This document shows positions 17,296 to 52,611 of a DNA stretch of 64,000 bases, one piece after another. How positions within the stretch are numbered: the stretch's first letter is position 1; every line of letters starts with the position of its first letter. The notes under the pieces are model-generated. The model had not been told where the DNA came from. It did no database searches and saw only the letters and a program-made list of their open reading frames with translations. The stretch comes from Prolixibacteraceae bacterium (GTDB lineage Bacteria; Bacteroidota; Bacteroidia; Bacteroidales; Prolixibacteraceae). Where the stretch lies: contig JAFLKN010000035.1 of assembly GCA_019163175.1 (NCBI GenBank), positions 1 to 64,000 of the forward strand, given 5' to 3'. The translations under genes and the position numbers were made by a program.

Positions 17296-17376
17296 TTGGA
17301 TTTTGCAGCTTTTCAGAAATGAAAATGAAAAGTACATACGGTTTTTCGCTTTTTCGCCGAAAGCTTCAAAATCCAA
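17296..17376 (-). promoter_or_regulatory. Candidate expression-platform stem between cobalamin riboswitch and start codon
   Basis: Two arms, at 17360-17376 and 17296-17313, can pair as TTGGATTTTG/CAAAATCCAA (10 bases), one mismatch, then AGCTTT/AAAGCT (6 bases). The stem begins seven bases after the B12 box and ends 25 bases before the ATG at 17270. No U run follows it, so it is not a classical terminator and may act on translation or as an alternative structure. Confidence 0.5.
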
Positions 17377-17382
17377 TTTGAG

Positions 17383-17562
17383 CAGGCAGGTCTTCTGACT
17401 TATCCTCTCTGTAGCACCTTCCCGTTCTGAAAATCAGAACAGTGGTTATTGTTACAAAGTTCTACCGGAATTACAGCAGCGGGAACTGTGCAGGAATTGC
17501 CGAACAAAACGACTCACCTGTTTCCCTTTTAATCCTGAAATAGGAACCTAATCTGCTGCAAA
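17383..17562 (-). ncRNA. Cobalamin (B12) riboswitch
   Basis: Read on the minus strand this leader has the class hallmarks in order: AAAAGGGAAACAGGTG near 17525, the CCCGCTGCTGTAA core near 17480, CCACTG near 17440, GGGAAG near 17420, and the B12 box AGTCAGAAGACCTGCC at 17400-17385. Such elements sense adenosyl- or methylcobalamin and repress B12 uptake genes when ligand is abundant. It precedes the T9SS surface protein, TonB receptor and propeller lipoprotein. The ends are estimated from conserved segments. Confidence 0.95.
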
Positions 17563-17771
17563 GTTATATAAAAGATCGAAACAATAATTTTTGCTGAAAG
17601 AAATTAAGTCTTTTAATTGAATGAGTTCATAAACCGCAGGAAATGTAATCTTGAGCCAGAAATAACTATCAGAAAATAAGCTGGATAAGTCGAATAATTA
17701 ACACAATATTGATTGTTGACAATTCTTTATATCTAAGCTTGAATTTGCCAGCGGAATCTGCTAAAAGTGCT

Positions 17772-46018: not shown

Positions 46019-46756
46019 CTATTTACTCAATCGTTCTACATTTTCCCCAATTATTACCAAAGCTGGCATAGGTGGTTTTTGAGTTTCGAGTATTTGGGCA
46101 ATAGTGCCAAGTGTTGCCTCTAAAGCTGAAGAATCGGGCTGCGAGACTTTACTTAGAATTTGTATTTTAACTTCCGGAGAGATAGCCAGATCCATTAATC
46201 GCTGAGACAAATGCACCAGTTTATTGAGTCCCATAAAGAAAATGATTGGAGATCCCGAATTCAATACAGAAACAAAAGTTTGCAAATCGCAAAAATCACC
46301 TTCGCAATAATGTCCAGTACCAAATAATACCATACTGTTTTTTCCGCGTTCAGTCAGTGGAATACCATACAGCGAAGCGGCACCTAAAGCAGAAGTAACT
46401 CCAGGAATTGCTTCATAATTCAAGCCATTTTCAATACAAAACCTGATTTCTTCAGCACCGCGTCCAAAAATCATTGGATCGCCAGATTTCAAGCGAACAA
46501 CCTTTTGCCCTTTTGCTGCTAATTCAATGATCAATTGGTTAATCCACTCTTGTCTTCCGGTTTGATCCTGTCCATCCTGATAAATTTTCCCTACATAAAT
46601 TTTCTTTGCCTCCGGTCTGGCCAAGTTTAAAATTTCTTCACTCACCAGCGCATCATGCAAAATGCAATCTGCTTCTTGTATTCGTTTAAGCGCTTTAATA
46701 GTAAGCAATTCGGGATCGCCAGGACCAGCACCAACTATGGAAATAAGAGAAGACAT
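46019..46756 (-). CDS. cobA: Uroporphyrinogen-III C-methyltransferase
   Basis: SUMT converts uroporphyrinogen III to precorrin-2 using two SAM, the entry to siroheme. The 245-residue protein shows VGAGPGDPELLTIKALKRI at the N-terminus, YVGK, VVRLKSGDPMIFGRGAEEI and YEAIPGVTSALGAASLYGIPLT. As last gene of the sulfite-reductase operon it supplies siroheme for CysI. It lies 75 bases after the SDR gene with no terminator seen. Its stop abuts the convergent CDF gene. Confidence 0.95.
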   Translation of the reverse strand: MSSLISIVGAGPGDPELLTIKALKRIQEADCILHDALVSEEILNLARPEAKKIYVGKIYQDGQDQTGRQEWINQLIIELAAKGQKVVRLKSGDPMIFGRGAEEIRFCIENGLNYEAIPGVTSALGAASLYGIPLTERGKNSMVLFGTGHYCEGDFCDLQTFVSVLNSGSPIIFFMGLNKLVHLSQRLMDLAISPEVKIQILSKVSQPDSSALEATLGTIAQILETQKPPMPALVIIGENVERLSK

Positions 46757-46831: not shown

Positions 46832-47668
46832 TTACTTTTGAATTGGCTTCAGGCTGTCAAGATAATCCATCGGACTTTGATATTTAAACTGATAGTTCAA
46901 TAGACGTAAAAGTTTGCTGCTGTCGATGATTTTGAAGGCTTCAGGATCATTTGATATGGAAGGTTCAGTCAGACCAGAAATCAGTGCTGCTTTGCCGTAA
47001 AAATCCTTTTTCAATGGATGCTCCGGACAACAGGCATTTAGAGTTTCACCCCAAAGTTCTTGCTCGATAATGGCTTCAATGATCCCAATACAATCGTCCT
47101 GATGAATCAGATTTACCGGTGTATTTGGCACTGCTTGTCCCGATTTCAACAGAAAGCGGGCTGGATTCCGATCAGCACCGATCAATCCACCAAATCTGAC
47201 AATGGTTGTTTTAAAATCTGACAGACTTTTAAATAGATTTTCAGCAATAACCAGTGCTTTCCCACTTGATTTATCGGGGAAAAGTTCATCCGATTCACTT
47301 GCTGTTTGCAGATTTTCAGGATAGACCGAAGTTGAGGAAATGAAAATAACCTTTTGTATCTCCGACTCTAAAATTAACGAAATCAATCCTGCAATTTGAG
47401 CAGGAAATACACTTTCAATTTCAGCAATTCTGCGCGGCGGTATCGAAATTATCAGAACATCACAATCAAAAAATGTTGAATCATTTACCTCCGCTAATTT
47501 TTCATTTAAAACTATCTTATAAGGTTGTATTCCTGCATTTTGAAGCAAATCGAACTTCTCGGTTGAAGTTACCGAACCTTTTACTGTAAAACCATTATCA
47601 AGCAAATGTCTTGCTAAAGGCACTCCCAGCCATCCACAACCTAAAATTGAAATTATTCCTGATTTCAT
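46832..47668 (-). CDS. NAD(P)-binding SDR-type epimerase-like protein (YeeZ type)
   Basis: A 278-residue Rossmann protein. N-terminal GxGxxG-like motif (SILGCGWLGVPLARHLLDNGFTVKGSV), then VIFISSTSVYPENL (SDR catalytic Ser region) and GRDRNP-like (IVRFGGLIGADRNPARF). Similar to YeeZ and related NAD-dependent epimerase-type proteins of unknown substrate. It lies between the HemD-like gene and cobA in the siroheme and sulfite operon, so an accessory role there is possible but unknown. Confidence 0.8.
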   Translation of the reverse strand: MKSGIISILGCGWLGVPLARHLLDNGFTVKGSVTSTEKFDLLQNAGIQPYKIVLNEKLAEVNDSTFFDCDVLIISIPPRRIAEIESVFPAQIAGLISLILESEIQKVIFISSTSVYPENLQTASESDELFPDKSSGKALVIAENLFKSLSDFKTTIVRFGGLIGADRNPARFLLKSGQAVPNTPVNLIHQDDCIGIIEAIIEQELWGETLNACCPEHPLKKDFYGKAALISGLTEPSISNDPEAFKIIDSSKLLRLLNYQFKYQSPMDYLDSLKPIQK

Positions 47669-47681
47669 TCTGACGATTCAA

Positions 47682-48029
47682 TTATTTACTATTCTCTTTC
47701 ATCCAGTGCGCTATGGAGTATTGAACAAACGACAATTCATCCTGTTCAGCCAGAAGAACTACCTTGTTGGTAAAATAGCGCCAGGCAGCCTGTGCAGTTG
47801 GGTTTCCGTTGGCTATAATTAGCGAAGACGGGGGTGGAAAATTTCCCGAAGCTCTGTAGCTTTCAATTCCAGCAGGACTAAAGAAAAGGAAAGCATCGAA
47901 TACTTCGTTTTCAAATTTTTCAACAGGCGTTTCAGTATTAACCTCGACATACTCTACTTGCTGATTGTAAAGCCACTGATGCGTAATTGCGGACATTCTC
48001 TGACCGATAAATAGAAATGGAGTTTTCAT
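47682..48029 (-). CDS. Short uroporphyrinogen-III synthase-like protein
   Basis: A 115-residue protein similar to one lobe of HemD (FDAFLFFSPAGIESYRASGNFPP..IIANGNPTAQAAWRYFTNKVVLLAEQDELSFVQYSIAHWMKE). Uroporphyrinogen-III synthases are ~240-260 residues with two such lobes, so this is about half length. Flanking sequence shows no continuation: the cysI stop is three bases upstream and the next gene starts 13 bases downstream. It may be a genuine single-lobe form or a degenerate HemD. Context with cobA, cysG and cysJI supports tetrapyrrole association. Confidence 0.6.
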   Translation of the reverse strand: MKTPFLFIGQRMSAITHQWLYNQQVEYVEVNTETPVEKFENEVFDAFLFFSPAGIESYRASGNFPPPSSLIIANGNPTAQAAWRYFTNKVVLLAEQDELSFVQYSIAHWMKENSK

Positions 48030-48032
48030 TTT

Positions 48033-49733
48033 CTAATGTTTGAAATCACTTCCTTTTAATGTTGCATTAACGTACTTCTTACGGATTACAAAATCACCAA
48101 ACTTTTCGCCATCGGTGCGATTTTGTGCATAATCAGCAATGATGGGGTTTAATTCAGCCAGAATTTCATCTTCGGTAAGCGTTTCTTTATAGAGGGTATT
48201 TAAGCGGGTTCCATTAAAATTGCCGCCCAAATAAAGATTGTAATGACCTTCTGATTTTCCAACAAAACCGATTTCAGCCAAATAAGGTCTTCCACAGCCA
48301 TTGGGACAACCGGTCATCCGAATCACAATTTCATCCTGAAAAAGTCCATGCTGATCCAGAATTGATTCAATTTTGGTTATAAGCGAAGGAAGATACCTTT
48401 CAGCCTCGGCAAAAGCCAATCCGCAGGTATTTAGCGCCACACAAGCTATAGAATTCTTTCGGAGTCCTGAAATCTCACCAGGTAAAACTCCATATTTTTT
48501 CAGGATTTCGCCAACTTCCGTTTTCCCATCAGCTGATACATTTGCAATTACCAGGTTCTGATTTCCTGTCAGGATGAATTGCCCTTCGACTTTTTTAGCT
48601 ACTTCACGAAGTGCTGATTTCAGCTTAAAATCGCCGCGGTCAGCAACCCTTCCACCTTCAACAAATAATGTCAGGCTCCAATTCGAATCAGCACCTTTGG
48701 TCCATCCCATTCGATCACCATTTCGGGTAAAAGTGTATGGTTTGGGTTCCTGAAAGGCATAGCCCAAAAGTTTCTCAACTTCACTTTTAAACCAAGCTAT
48801 ACCATGATTATCAATGGTATATTTCAGTCGGGAAAGTTTGCGATTTTGTCGGTTTCCATTATCCCGCTGGACTAAAACAACCTTCTCAGCAACTTCAAGT
48901 ACCTGTTCTGGCAAACAGAAACCAATGATTTCGGCTAAACGCGGATACGTCTCCGGCATTCCGAAGGTTGTGCCCATTCCGCCGCCAACAATTACATTGT
49001 AGCCAACAATCTGGCTATTTTCAACAATGGCAATAAAGCCCAGATCCTGAGAGAAAATATCAGAATCGTTGTATGGCGGAATGGCTACAGCAACTTTAAA
49101 CTTTCGCGGAAGATAGCGGTCTCCATAAATTGGTTCAACATCTTTTTTGCTGTCGGCCACAAGCTTTTCGTCGAGCCAAATTTCGTGATAAGCCCGAGTT
49201 GAGGGAAGTAAATGTTCGCTAATACGACGAGCAGTATCATAAACTTCAGCATGTAATTCTGATTCAGCCGGATTTGGGTGACACATCACATTTCTGTTTA
49301 CATCTCCGCAAGCAGCAATTGTATCCATTAAGGCCGCATTCATGCCCTGAATGGTTTTCTTCAGGTTTGTTTTAATTACGCCATGAAGCTGAAAAGCTTG
49401 TCTGGTTGTGAGTTTCAGTGTATGATTGGCATATTGATCTGATAAACTATCCATCTGTAGCCATTGTTTTGGAGTTACTAACCCGCCCGGAACCCGAACC
49501 CGAATCAGAAATGAATAGGCAGGTTCCAGTTTTTGCCGCTTACGTTCCTTTTCCAAATCGCGGTCGAACTGCTGATACATGCCATGAAACTTGGATATTT
49601 GGGTATCGCCAGGGGCAATTGATCCTGTAATCGGATTGGCCAGACTTTCAACCAAAGTTCCACGCAGGTAATTACTGTCGTACTTTAGTTTTTCTACTTC
49701 CGAGAGTTCAGCCCAGTTTATTGTATCGCTCAT
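48033..49733 (-). CDS. cysI: Assimilatory sulfite reductase hemoprotein subunit
   Basis: Reduces sulfite to sulfide by six electrons using siroheme and a 4Fe-4S cluster. The 566-residue protein has the sulfite/nitrite reductase ferredoxin-like domains and the iron-sulfur/siroheme cysteines: [16 protein letters not shown] (Cx5C) and [11 protein letters not shown] (CxxxC) near residues 430-485. Also [15 protein letters not shown]. It follows cysJ by 81 bases, making an NADPH-dependent enzyme with it. Downstream genes make siroheme. Confidence 0.96.
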
Positions 49734-49814: not shown

Positions 49815-51593
49815 TTAATATACATCTGTTTGAAATCGTTTTTCTTTTTTCAGTGTCTTCAGGTATTCCAGCGCTTTTTCCTCGCTCATGCCACCCTCAG
49901 TTTCGAAGATTTGGAGCAAGGTCTTTTGTACATCGCGCGCCATTTGCTTCATATCGCCACATAGATAAATGCTTGCCCCGTTGTTAAGCCAGTCAAATAT
50001 TTCCTTCTGTCGTTCAATTAAACGATGTTGTACATATACTTTTTCTTTCTGATCACGAGAGAATGCAACATCAATTTTTTCCAGATAACCATCTTTCAAC
50101 AGATTTTGCCATTCTACCTGATATAAAAAATCAGAATGGAAACGGCGTTCTCCAAAGAAAAGCCATGTTTTGCCTTTCTGATTATTGGCTTCGCGATGTT
50201 GTAAAAATGCACGATATGGCGCGACTCCTGTACCGGCGCCTACAAGTATAACTGGGGTTTCATCGTTTTCAGGAAGTTTAAAAGCCGGATTTTTCTCTAT
50301 AAAAACAGAAACCTGTGAGTCGATATCGATACGGTCGGCCAGATAGGTGGAACAAGCCCCGGCACGTTCACGGCCTTTATGCGAATATCGAACGGTGGCA
50401 ACAGTAACATGAACCTCGTTACCAACAGCTGCTTGACTCGACGAAATAGAATACAATCGTGGCGGAAAACTTCTCAGTATGTCGGCAAATTCCTGTGCTG
50501 AAAATTGGAATGGAAATTCCTCTAGTAAGTCCAGCACATCATGTCCGTAAAGATATTGGTCTAACAGAACTTCATTTTTAATAATTTCCAGAAGTTTTGT
50601 ATTTCCTGTTCTTTCCTGATATTTCTGAATCACTTCACGGTTTAACACTGTAATTTCAAGTCTGTCAGACAATGCTTCCTGAAGTGAAAATTCACCTTCT
50701 TTCAGTACCACAATTTCCGTCCCGCTTACATTAATTTGCCTGAGAATACCGTCGATCAAAGCCGGTGGATTGTTTGCAAGGATACCAACAGAATCACCAG
50801 GTTCGTAGGTAATTCCAGAGCCTTCCAACGAAAGCTCAACATGGTAGACTTCCTTATCAGAGTCACGTCCTGTAATTTTTACTTTATCAATTACAGTTGC
50901 CCGAAATGGCCTTTTTCTTGAATACTGATTGATTTGTAAAGAATTTGCCGGCAAAGTACTGTCAGAAACTGCGCTGCCTGGTAATTCAGCAAAAACATTG
51001 ACAAACTGATTAATCCAAAGATCAACTTCATCCTCAAAATCAACATCAAGTGTGAGGATTGGAAGAATAGATTTTGCTCCTGCTTTTGCCAAAGCCTGGT
51101 CGATATCAATACCGGTTTTGCAAAAGAGTTTATAACTTTTATCACCCAAAGCTACTACAGAATAATTGAGGTTTGGCAATTGAGGTGAACGTTTCCCGGT
51201 TATAAAACTGTAAAAATCTTCGGCCATTGCTGGCGGTTCGCCTTCGCCATGAGTACTAACGATGAAAACCAAATTAGTTTCAGAAGCTAATTGTCTGGTT
51301 TTGTACTCATCCAGTGCAACTGATTGTACGTCAACTCCTCTTTCGGCAAGCTTACCAGCTAATTTACCAGCTATTGTTTTGCTGCGGCCAGTATGCGTTC
51401 CATAGAGAATTTTCAGGTATTTGCTGTTTTTTGTCGTTGTAGGTATGTCGGCAGCCCTATTGCTTCCAGATGACACCAATAAGCCTTGAAAATAGCCATT
51501 AATCCAAAGCAGCTGTTCCCGGTTCAAGCCGGCAGAAAGGCTAGATAAAGCGCTAAGCTGTTGCTCATTTAATGGATTAAATTGATTACTCAT
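49815..51593 (-). CDS. cysJ: Assimilatory sulfite reductase flavoprotein subunit
   Basis: Passes electrons from NADPH via FAD and FMN to CysI. The 592-residue protein has a flavodoxin domain (~residues 55-210: KILYGTHTGRSKTIAGKLAGKL; VSTHGEGEPPAMAEDFYSF), a FAD-binding ferredoxin-reductase domain (RLYSISSSQAAVGNEVHVTV; GACSTYLADR) and a NADPH-binding domain (PVILVGAGTGVAPYRAFLQ; GASIYLCGDMKQMARDVQ), ending in FQTDVY-type CysJ C-terminus. The start overlaps the upstream cysG-N stop by four bases. Confidence 0.96.
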   Translation of the reverse strand: MSNQFNPLNEQQLSALSSLSAGLNREQLLWINGYFQGLLVSSGSNRAADIPTTTKNSKYLKILYGTHTGRSKTIAGKLAGKLAERGVDVQSVALDEYKTRQLASETNLVFIVSTHGEGEPPAMAEDFYSFITGKRSPQLPNLNYSVVALGDKSYKLFCKTGIDIDQALAKAGAKSILPILTLDVDFEDEVDLWINQFVNVFAELPGSAVSDSTLPANSLQINQYSRKRPFRATVIDKVKITGRDSDKEVYHVELSLEGSGITYEPGDSVGILANNPPALIDGILRQINVSGTEIVVLKEGEFSLQEALSDRLEITVLNREVIQKYQERTGNTKLLEIIKNEVLLDQYLYGHDVLDLLEEFPFQFSAQEFADILRSFPPRLYSISSSQAAVGNEVHVTVATVRYSHKGRERAGACSTYLADRIDIDSQVSVFIEKNPAFKLPENDETPVILVGAGTGVAPYRAFLQHREANNQKGKTWLFFGERRFHSDFLYQVEWQNLLKDGYLEKIDVAFSRDQKEKVYVQHRLIERQKEIFDWLNNGASIYLCGDMKQMARDVQKTLLQIFETEGGMSEEKALEYLKTLKKEKRFQTDVY

Positions 51594-52051
51594 ATTGTTG
51601 TGTTTTTAAGATTTTCTAAATATTCCTTTAGCAAATTGCGGACTCGGATTGATTCATAAACATTTTCAGCATTAGAACTCACCGCAACTGAAATATTACC
51701 TTCCTGATAAATGGCGGGCGAAACAAACTGGCAAAGTGAAGGATTATCATGGATATTAACCAAAACTCCAGCTTCTCTCCCATCATGCACAATTTGCCGA
51801 TCGAGTTCTTCATTGTTCGTACATGAATACAACATCAGATAACCTTCCAGATCGCCCTTTTCATATTTCTTCTGAAAACAAACTACTCCGGAAGTATAAA
51901 CTTCTTCAGTAATATTTTCAGCAACCACTTCAATGTTGGCCCCGAACCGCTGTAAAATCCTGATTTTCTTTAGTGCACTCTGGCCACCTCCAATAACTAG
52001 TATTTTCCGGTCTGAGATGTCAATTGATATGGGCAAAAATTTACGTGTCAT
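51590..52051 (-). CDS. Precorrin-2 dehydrogenase (siroheme synthase N-terminal type)
   Basis: A 153-residue NAD-binding protein corresponding to the CysG N-terminal/Met8-type domain (PISIDISDRKILVIGGGQSALKKIRILQRFGANIEVVAE; VNIHDNPSLCQFVSPAIYQEGNISVAVSSN). It oxidises precorrin-2 to sirohydrochlorin. Whether it also chelates iron cannot be told, as it is shorter than Met8 (~270) and CysG-N. Its stop overlaps cysJ by four bases. With cobA it completes the siroheme route split across the operon. Confidence 0.88.
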   Translation of the reverse strand: MTRKFLPISIDISDRKILVIGGGQSALKKIRILQRFGANIEVVAENITEEVYTSGVVCFQKKYEKGDLEGYLMLYSCTNNEELDRQIVHDGREAGVLVNIHDNPSLCQFVSPAIYQEGNISVAVSSNAENVYESIRVRNLLKEYLENLKNTTI

Positions 52052-52062
52052 CCTAATCTTAT

Positions 52063-52293
52063 TTAAATCTGGTAATCACTATCAGAGTTTTTTAATCTGC
52101 CAAAGTTTATTCGGTTCCAGGTACGCTCATGAAAATAATAAAGTGCCATTTTGGTAAATACTTCTACGCCTCCAATTGATATCGCCATTTCTGGTTTTCC
52201 GGTAATGATTAGAGAAATTATAATGGTATCAAGAGTTCCAATGGTGCGCCATGAAACCGATTTTACAATACTTCGATATGATTTTTCGCTCAT
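52063..52293 (-). CDS. DUF2061 family membrane protein, first gene of the sulfite reductase operon
   Basis: A 76-residue protein of the DUF2061 family (SIVKSVSWRTIGTLDTIIISLIITGKPEMAISIGGVEVFTKMALYYFHERTWNRI), with one or two predicted hydrophobic helices. DUF2061 genes recur beside sulfate-assimilation genes (CysC/CysN), but a function is not established. It starts 19 bases after the leader terminator and so is directly under the attenuator. It is followed 11 bases later by the precorrin-2 dehydrogenase gene. Confidence 0.88.
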   Translation of the reverse strand: MSEKSYRSIVKSVSWRTIGTLDTIIISLIITGKPEMAISIGGVEVFTKMALYYFHERTWNRINFGRLKNSDSDYQI

Positions 52294-52311: not shown

Positions 52312-52345
52312 AAAAAAAGCCCTTCTGACTAGTTCAGAAGGGCTT
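52312..52345 (-). terminator. Attenuator terminator upstream of the sulfite reductase operon
   Basis: On the minus strand AAGCCCTTCTGA / TCAGAAGGGCTT form a perfect 12-base stem with a five-base loop (ACTAG), followed by seven U residues. It ends 18 bases before the DUF2061 start codon, so it must be crossed by transcripts entering the operon. Its 5' arm can instead pair with the upstream leader segment at 52384-52392. Confidence 0.9.
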
Positions 52346-52366
52346 AAATATATTTTGGCAAATGAT

Positions 52367-52483
52367 TTACCATATCCTGTTAACCTTCTGAAAAGACAAA
52401 TGAGAACACATACACATATACATGTTGATGCACACAGCTGAATTCGAATTCGTGAATTTTATTTCAGAAGAAAATTGGTTCAT
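52367..52483 (-). CDS. Cys/Met-rich leader peptide of the sulfite reductase operon attenuator
   Basis: A 38-codon minus-strand reading frame, ATG at 52483, TAA at 52369-52367. Residues 18-26 read CINMYMCMC: three Cys and three Met in nine codons, with a further Met at codon 1. It ends W38 22 bases before the terminator stem. Codons 31-34 (52393-52384) contain the strand that can pair with either codons 5-8 (52470-52462, nine bases) or the terminator 5' arm (nine bases). This is the layout of a translation-coupled leader peptide; stalling at Cys or Met codons would favour readthrough. Not homologous to a named leader I know. Confidence 0.72.
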   Translation of the reverse strand: MNQFSSEIKFTNSNSAVCINMYMCMCSHLSFQKVNRIW

Positions 52484-52521
52484 AAATAAAAGACTAAATG
52501 ATCTGTAATTATTCAATACTG

Positions 52522-52550
52522 CAAAAGTAGATTCTAATTCCAAATTTCAA
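52522..52550 (-). promoter_or_regulatory. Promoter of the sulfite reductase operon leader
   Basis: Minus strand TTG (52550-52548), 18 bases, then TACTTTTG (52529-52522), a perfect TAnnTTTG element. It lies 38 bases before the leader peptide start, placing the start site near 52515. Together these give a leader of ~220 bases before the DUF2061 gene. Confidence 0.6.
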
Positions 52551-52603: not shown

Positions 52604-52611
52604 TATATTTG
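52604..52611 (+). promoter_or_regulatory. Candidate -7 box for the ATP-grasp-like orphan gene
   Basis: TATATTTG matches TAnnTTTG exactly and overlaps the in-frame TTG at 52609. It is 21 bases before the ATG at 52633, supporting that start. Confidence 0.45.

Follow-up and report, generated by a model that had tools for sequence, protein, structure and literature searches.

A Cys/Met leader peptide and a probable trp-type attenuator upstream of the sulfite reductase operon in a Prolixibacteraceae bacterium

The sulfite reductase operon of a Prolixibacteraceae bacterium is preceded by a leader that is very probably a ribosome-mediated (trp-type) transcription attenuator sensing sulfur amino acids, and that most likely turns on the sulfite-reductase genes when these amino acids run short. 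The leader lies in the window, a stretch of 64,000 nt, within a genome of 5.9 Mb in 74 contigs. An initial annotation, made from the letters alone, had proposed trp-type attenuation here; comparison now strongly supports that reading. The lack of conservation in related genomes by which it would have been refuted was not found, relatives sharing the leader ORF, the Cys/Met cluster and the pairings, and all coordinates that it gave (promoter, ORF, strands A, B and C, terminator) proved exact to the base on re-checking (Table 1). In layout and proposed mechanism the leader follows the trp-type attenuation already known, and the wider regulon and the tandem units described below are the more novel part. 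For the sulfite-reductase and cysteine genes of Bacteroidota it is a concrete candidate regulator that can be tested sharply and cheaply, because the mechanism is a classical one.

The 38-codon frame with CINMYMCMC at residues 18-26 was confirmed by translation of the ORF, which gives the peptide MNQFSSEIKFTNSNSAVCINMYMCMCSHLSFQKVNRIW. Its Cys codons are numbers 18, 24 and 26, the last of them 12 codons before the stop. We take the promoter-like element to be a Bacteroidota-type promoter by the consensus TAnnTTTG; among the 35 leaders compared, a TAnnTTTG box occurs within 170 nt 5' of the leader ATG in all 35, and a promoter TTG with a spacer of 16-21 nt in 25. The intrinsic terminator, a 12-bp stem with seven T, is evident from the sequence and ends 18 nt before the ATG of the first gene at 52293. 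Several close relatives have, by eye, a GGTnnA..ACC resembling the small hairpin over the window stop codon. The sulfite reductase operon behind the leader is likewise substantiated, with CysJ and CysI exceeding curated NCBIfam cut-offs; what the initial annotation did not give is that the first gene encodes a DUF2061 protein and is followed by cysG-N, cysJ and cysI. From their spacing and strand, the genes from DUF2061 through the uroporphyrinogen-III methyltransferase probably form one operon. Two other candidates were rejected. A terminator serving the plus strand would have AAATATATTT as its tail, and the plus-strand ORF at 52609 points away from it; a second ATGTGTATGTGT in the window genome (contig C12) stands in sequence that by eye has no leader features.

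Table 1. Features of the leader and of the genes behind it, in coordinates of the window
Feature	Position	Strand	Evidence
Promoter-like TTG-N18-TACTTTTG (box TAnnTTTG)	52550-52522	minus	sequence
Leader peptide ORF, 38 codons + TAA	52483-52367	minus	ATG at 52483, TAA at 52369-52367
Putative control codons CINMYMCMC, codons 18-26	52406..52432	minus	ORF translation
Strand A CTTCTGAAA, predicted partner B	52470-52462	minus	sequence and comparative pairing
Strand B TTTCAGAAGG, predicted partner A or C	52393-52384	minus	sequence and comparative pairing
Small hairpin GGTAAATCATTTGCC over stop codon	52357..52371	minus	minimum-energy fold
Strand C CCTTCTGAA	52341-52333	minus	sequence
Terminator 5' arm, overlapping C	52345-52334	minus	12-bp stem
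Terminator 3' arm (strand D)	52328-52317	minus	12-bp stem
T run, seven T, first two within the 12-bp stem	52318-52312	minus	sequence
First gene, DUF2061 small membrane protein, 76 aa	52063..52293	minus	Pfam PF09834, 3e-22
Siroheme synthase N-terminal (CysG-N) type protein	51590..52051	minus	NCBIfam TIGR01470, above cut-off
cysJ, sulfite reductase flavoprotein	49815..51593	minus	NCBIfam TIGR01931, 720 bits, cut-off 668
cysI, sulfite reductase hemoprotein	48033..49733	minus	NCBIfam TIGR02041, 827 bits, cut-off 757
115-aa protein of the cluster, no family match	47682..48029	minus	Pfam/NCBIfam scan
NAD-binding protein of the cluster	46832..47668	minus	Pfam PF13460, just above cut-off
Uroporphyrinogen-III C-methyltransferase (siroheme synthesis)	46019..46756	minus	NCBIfam TIGR01469, above cut-off

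The leader ORF, the Cys/Met cluster and the three pairings recur in relatives. DUF2061 is present in 36 of 101 genomes, that of the window included. At 26 of 30 such loci (L002 to L031, the window being L002) a leader starts no more than 420 nt upstream, and two of the 26 have one Cys in the cluster (L010, L014). No leader was found within that distance at L025, L029, L030 and L031; the genomes of L029 and L030 (G028, G059) have a match to R1, our covariance model of the leader, about 2.2 kb further upstream, which in G028 sits before cysD (L163). The closest named record by its first gene is a Prolixibacteraceae MAG (L032, 92% identity), and records of Sunxiuqinia, Draconibacterium, Mangrovibacterium and Gaoshiqia carry the leader too. 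By eye, leader and terminator stand within 600 nt upstream at 25 of 80 named loci, including L036 and L037, the matches of L010 and L014; at least two more, L050 and L066, have it about 900 nt upstream, beyond the 600 nt that the reading covered. The remaining named loci are mostly from Campylobacterota or Flavobacteriales.

The leader also follows cysI through the family. A search at E 1e-40 detected CysI in 80 of the 140 family genomes. With the 70 strongest R1 matches, and with second CysI fragments in G017 and G119 left out, 62 of the 67 family CysI matches of at least 65% identity have R1 no more than 6 kb upstream and on their own strand. The remaining five lie so close to a contig start (2 to 2,271 nt) that the contig would lack the leader, the shortest leader-to-cysI distance being 2,262 nt. 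None of the 14 family CysI matches below 65% identity has a typed R1 match upstream, and no Cys leader with terminator was seen at five of six such loci inspected; in G142 (L232) a CysI of this group is preceded by a Cys leader particular to it, MNIQKLHTASCCSCTFMCMMCCCCCM, and by a terminator. In practice R1 works at the level of the family, since an order-wide scan at E 1e-4 returned one of 295 genomes, the window genome itself, and a phylum-wide scan at E 1e-3 returned 16 of 395, the window genome included. Among the 17 phylum-wide loci outside the window, L158 has no Cys leader by eye and L156 has a Thr leader.

We aligned 35 leaders, 26 from the 30 loci above and nine from named genomes. 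Selection had required a Cys/Met motif in an ORF of 25-45 codons, and the open frame and the Cys content of these leaders, on average 11.4% Cys and 15.6% Met with the start codon excluded and in each leader at least one Cys and at least three Met besides the start, are therefore there by construction. Gap runs come in multiples of three in 100 of 103 cases inside the ORF versus 51 of 172 after the stop, counting runs that are common to several rows and hence not independent, 63 of the 103 having 9 nt. An ORF of 18-60 codons stands at the leader position in all 34 further strong model matches, Cys not being required, and at least two Cys and two Met codons occur in all 25 further leaders that are not copies of the 35; some of the 25 are alike, and R1 contains ATGTGT columns, so this test of ORF and Cys is partly built in. 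A scan of the window for terminator-like sites with a Cys-clustered ORF upstream, B:C pairing not being required, gave 12 sites, with such an ORF at the leader's terminator only; in 20 first-order Markov sequences, each of 64 kb, there were 101 terminators, two with a Cys-clustered ORF, or about 0.1 per window. A chance ORF is rejected on the frame-keeping gaps, the window scan and the ORFs in further model matches, and the window leader appears to carry an ORF with clustered control codons in a conserved frame. Three of the Cys leader peptides had no NCBIfam or Pfam match. Cys and Met are both enriched and are interleaved in the leaders. We take Cys to be the main signal of the window leader, as the more regular control amino acid, and give about even odds to Met as a second signal, a likely candidate for a co-signal. 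The extremes are a near-all-Cys unit (L099), where no terminator was found, and the first unit of L164, before metY, which has Met without Cys (MKRMMMHMTMMMPERNWRG).

The three overlapping pairings proposed in the initial annotation, A:B, B:C and C:D, are borne out by paired cells, by the covariation score and by partner permutations. Paired cells were counted in an alignment (A3) of 24 of the 35 leaders; L008, L011, L014, L015, L022, L027, L028, L046, L059, L083 and L093 were left out, five of them with strand B shifted by MAFFT. In these 24 leaders C:D is paired in 95.8% of cells, B:C in 96.8% and A:B in 91.2%, the last figure being favoured by the omission of L015, which lacks strand A; A:B and C:D jointly have standard pairs in 93.8% of cells, and moving the partners out of register by one to three columns lowers pairing to 32-65%. 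Strand A is also weak in a few other leaders. The covariation score was reached by none of 500 shuffles for A:B with C:D and by none of 500 for B:C. Two cruder measures, double-sided pair changes and further pair types, were reached by 8 and 28 of 500 shuffles for A:B with C:D, and by 457 and 429 of 500 for B:C, which on these measures does not exceed the shuffles. Four columns, 11 in A, 111 in B, 179 in C and 185 in D, covary and correspond to the loop-closing pair of the terminator: A:B has AU in 12 leaders, UG in 6 and CG in 2, B:C has GC in 7, UA in 6, UG in 6 and GU in 4, and C:D has six pair types. Such joint change is what three exclusive pairings of the same strands demand. In L008 a base in A costs a Ser-to-Pro change in the peptide yet keeps the pair with that leader's own B. 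When the mean duplex energy of own partners was compared with that of dealt partners in 22 chosen representatives, L015 included, dealt partners were as good in one of 20,000 permutations for A:B and in none of 20,000 for B:C or C:D. These controls remove the relatedness of the leaders in part. As judged from the aligned sequences, A:B, B:C and C:D appear to be mutually exclusive pairings, with A missing in L015.

This comparative evidence is stronger than that from folding energy, which alone proves just the terminator. The full 217-nt leader folds with A:B and C:D better than 200 of 200 shuffles (z -3.69); cut after C, it folds with B:C at z -0.88, and 33 of 200 shuffles are as good, so it is mainly the terminator that produces the energy signal. 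For naked window RNA ending after C, B:C is the favoured pairing at equilibrium.

The spacing of control codons, strand B and stop codon was set against the footprint of a ribosome. Of 34 leaders (L006 missing), 31 have no fewer than 12 nt between the last Cys and the CAGAAG core of B, and 25 have 12 or 15 nt, the window leader having 15 nt; the stop codon lies 9-21 nt past the start of this core in relatives. With the usual ribosome footprint, B is just clear of a ribosome modelled on the last Cys, whereas five or seven of its seven bases are covered by one at the stop in 33 of 35 leaders. In the window leader the stop codon comes one codon later than in its nearest relative, and a ribosome modelled there covers two of the seven bases. 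In transcripts ending after C, the modelled probability of B:C exceeds 0.5 in 21 of 35 leaders as naked RNA, in 32 of 35 with a ribosome at the last Cys and in 35 of 35 with the ribosome one Cys earlier, strand A being kept out in the ribosome cases; when A may re-pair around the ribosome the number is 29 of 35. A ribosome on the control codons is predicted by the model to leave B free.

These parts suggest the following course of events, in which stalling, its coupling to transcription and the response to Cys or Met are what we infer. Transcription would start roughly 30 nt before the leader ORF, as placed from the promoter box, and a ribosome would trail the polymerase through the leader. 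With Cys-tRNA (and perhaps Met-tRNA) charged, the ribosome would move across B and reach the stop codon during synthesis of C and D; B being covered, the C:D terminator would form and transcription would end before the operon. With Cys (or Met) in short supply, the ribosome would stall on the Cys/Met codons, the last Cys lying mostly 12-15 nt before B, so that B would be free to form B:C, D would stay unpaired, and the polymerase would read through into DUF2061-cysG-cysJ-cysI and the siroheme genes. In a leader left untranslated, A:B would form first and then the terminator. Since a ribosome stalled at codons 18-26 has already passed A, A:B would act only before or without translation.

An improbable alternative is nascent-peptide arrest, in which the Cys/Met-rich peptide itself would halt the ribosome in response to a signal (a metal, redox state, Cys or SAM) and so set off the RNA switch described above. 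Metal-linked Cys-rich leader peptides do exist, and the MCMC(C) core is little altered over genera and mostly keeps its 12-15 nt from B. The order and number of Cys and Met vary, however (MCCCMCC, MMCMCC, MYMCMW), the ilvD and aspartokinase leaders share the layout with other amino acids, and the metY unit MKRMMMHMTMMMPERNWRG of L164 has Met and no Cys at all, all of which speaks against such arrest. More improbable still is that the ORF is translated but acts through translation coupling or mRNA stability, the hairpin being a plain insulating terminator. Such a hairpin, at 12 bp with a T run, would be strong enough alone, but a plain terminator would need no B, and yet B:C is paired in 96.8% of cells and does better than dealt partners; nor is there a minus-strand ORF of at least 90 aa directly upstream to terminate. 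A metabolite riboswitch (SAM, for example) with an incidental ORF, for which a structured 5' leader with a terminator would speak, has a probability close to nil and is rejected, as the initial annotation had done for SAM, since no Rfam family matches the window leader or 15 related loci at gathering score (the best sub-threshold match is PyrR, 33.6 bits versus 54) and gaps within the ORF keep the frame.

Leaders of other content stand before other genes. In the window genome, two further leaders were reached at weak R1 scores, 40.6 and 39.4 bits. One, MKANFSYMYMCCCFKQSGEGMFSIHG (YMYMCCC), stands with its terminator directly before cysK (G000:C7:98909-99083; L113, L181). The other, MKNISIISLVIVSVVVLLRAE (motif IISLVIVSVVVLL), stands with its terminator before ilvD (G000:C19:98659-98804; L114, L182), has a weak match to an ilv operon leader peptide (NCBIfam/Pfam, E 0.015, below cut-off) and is likely a branched-chain attenuator. 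Other family genomes have leaders before cysK, before an OsmC/cysK operon, before cysD and before metY, which in L164 is followed by a metX-like gene below the NCBIfam cut-off; outside the family they precede metY, DUF2061-cysH and aspartokinase. These genes were identified by scanning representatives; the remaining members were assigned by eye on sequence similarity. In the stretches of the window genome that were read, no complete leader of this type was seen ahead of cysD or metY. In one of its contigs (C20; L243:2366-2500) a Met-rich ORF with MMSMYMIMR at its end runs directly into a stem, TAGCCTTCAA...TTGAAGGCTA, that has no T run; the two precede an aspartokinase-metY-metA region (genes named by eye), perhaps as a translational or Rho-linked variant.

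Codon content differs with the gene downstream, Cys being most frequent before cysK (18.1% Cys, 10.9% Met; n=8) and Met before metY (11.1% Cys, 23.0% Met; n=11), while ilvD leaders (n=3) have 57.6% Ile+Leu+Val and the aspartokinase leader (n=1) has 34.8% Thr. The metY and cysK classes differ in Met minus Cys at p = 0.003, a value uncorrected for relatedness and mixed with taxonomy, because nine of the 11 metY leaders come from outside the family and all cysK leaders from within. From these classes the near-duplicates L151, L152 and L154 and second units were omitted, L144 and L165 were not classed, L172 (cysK first) was placed with OsmC/cysK, and the peptide of L183 repeats that of L010. As judged from codon content, the control codons would specify the product of the pathway, Cys directly and Met further on.

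Cys/Met leaders with a terminator also stand before an OsmC-like gene (L170, L171, L174, L176, L177, L180, L194, L196), identified by scan at L170 and L174. The next gene is cysK in L177 and encodes a Cys/Met-metabolism enzyme in L196; leaders before it and such genes after it suggest a sulfur role for this OsmC. In L167 a leader MQNSFANNSTATYNMACMCSAFTLWKR and its terminator precede a DUF4395 gene.

Eight of ten loci that had been preselected on earlier hints (L069:5541-6010, L070:5541-6010, L164, L165, L197, L198, L199, L200; all outside the window) carry a tandem pair of leader ORFs, both followed by a terminator, the second terminator of L198, GCCCTT...AAGGGC with a T run, being read by eye only. 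The pairs precede DUF2061 in L069 and L070 and metY in most others, the gene of L165 not being identified, and the two units of one locus can differ in Cys and Met content. Codon content that tracks the pathway, together with paired units in series, makes a natural experiment on the signals open to attenuators and on the way two of them combine. We put at slightly under an even chance a broader reading, in which a sulfur-amino-acid attenuator regulon extends over Bacteroidota and related groups (cysJI, cysK, OsmC/cysK, cysD, metY) with the window leader as one member, mixed codons form a bispecific sensor of sulfur supply, and tandem units, in which both stalls have to coincide, serve some operons as a logic gate or as a sharper switch.

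The trp, his, thr and ilv leaders of enteric bacteria are trp-type attenuators, and the window leader is like them in its ORF with control codons, three overlapping pairings, intrinsic terminator and codons for the pathway product. It is unlike them in that its control codons are Cys/Met and lie between A and B, and in its sulfite-reduction operon and Bacteroidota host. Leaders of mycobacteria with Cys codons are reportedly cysteine-responsive (Canestrari 2020).

Other Cys leaders have been described. The uORFC-8-2 motif upstream of cysS in Rhodobacterales (Alphaproteobacteria) is a proposed Cys attenuator with a terminator, and it shares with the window leader an ORF with conserved Cys codons, an intrinsic terminator and the same proposed logic (PMC8632094). 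We set the two apart by location and codon positions as described for the motif, which has two tandem Cys codons at 14-15 before cysS, whereas the window leader has Cys at 18, 24 and 26 before DUF2061-cysJI; a possible third paired region of the motif is described as rare and without covariation (PMC8632094). Actinobacterial Cys leaders have runs of Cys codons upstream of cys operons, and these lie near the stop with no conserved terminator hairpin, unlike the window leader with its last Cys 12 codons off and its terminator (PMC1262725). One paper suggests Rho for these leaders and another translation attenuation. Two Bacteroidota transcriptome papers touch on leader-peptide attenuation or on short ORFs in front of genes and operons, in passages that name no Cys/Met leader for sulfur genes, unlike what is found in the window (PMC9723704, PMC7366714). 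Tandem attenuators are known for Salmonella mgtCBR (PMC3641672). In the literature on leader peptides and attenuators, covered in part, we found no earlier description of Cys/Met leaders before sulfite reductase in Bacteroidota.

Two minor observations concern other RNA or DNA elements. Just after the promoter box, one branch of the leaders (L027, L028, L059, L075, L082, L083, L093) has an inverted repeat like GTGACAAAAGTCAC, which may be a 5' hairpin or an operator, presumably of Crp/Fnr type by its motif; at this place the repeat is shorter, AGAy...AGTCT, in the window and its genus. Elsewhere in the window, the minus strand carries a cobalamin riboswitch at 17368-17566 (Rfam RF00174, 104.4 bits).
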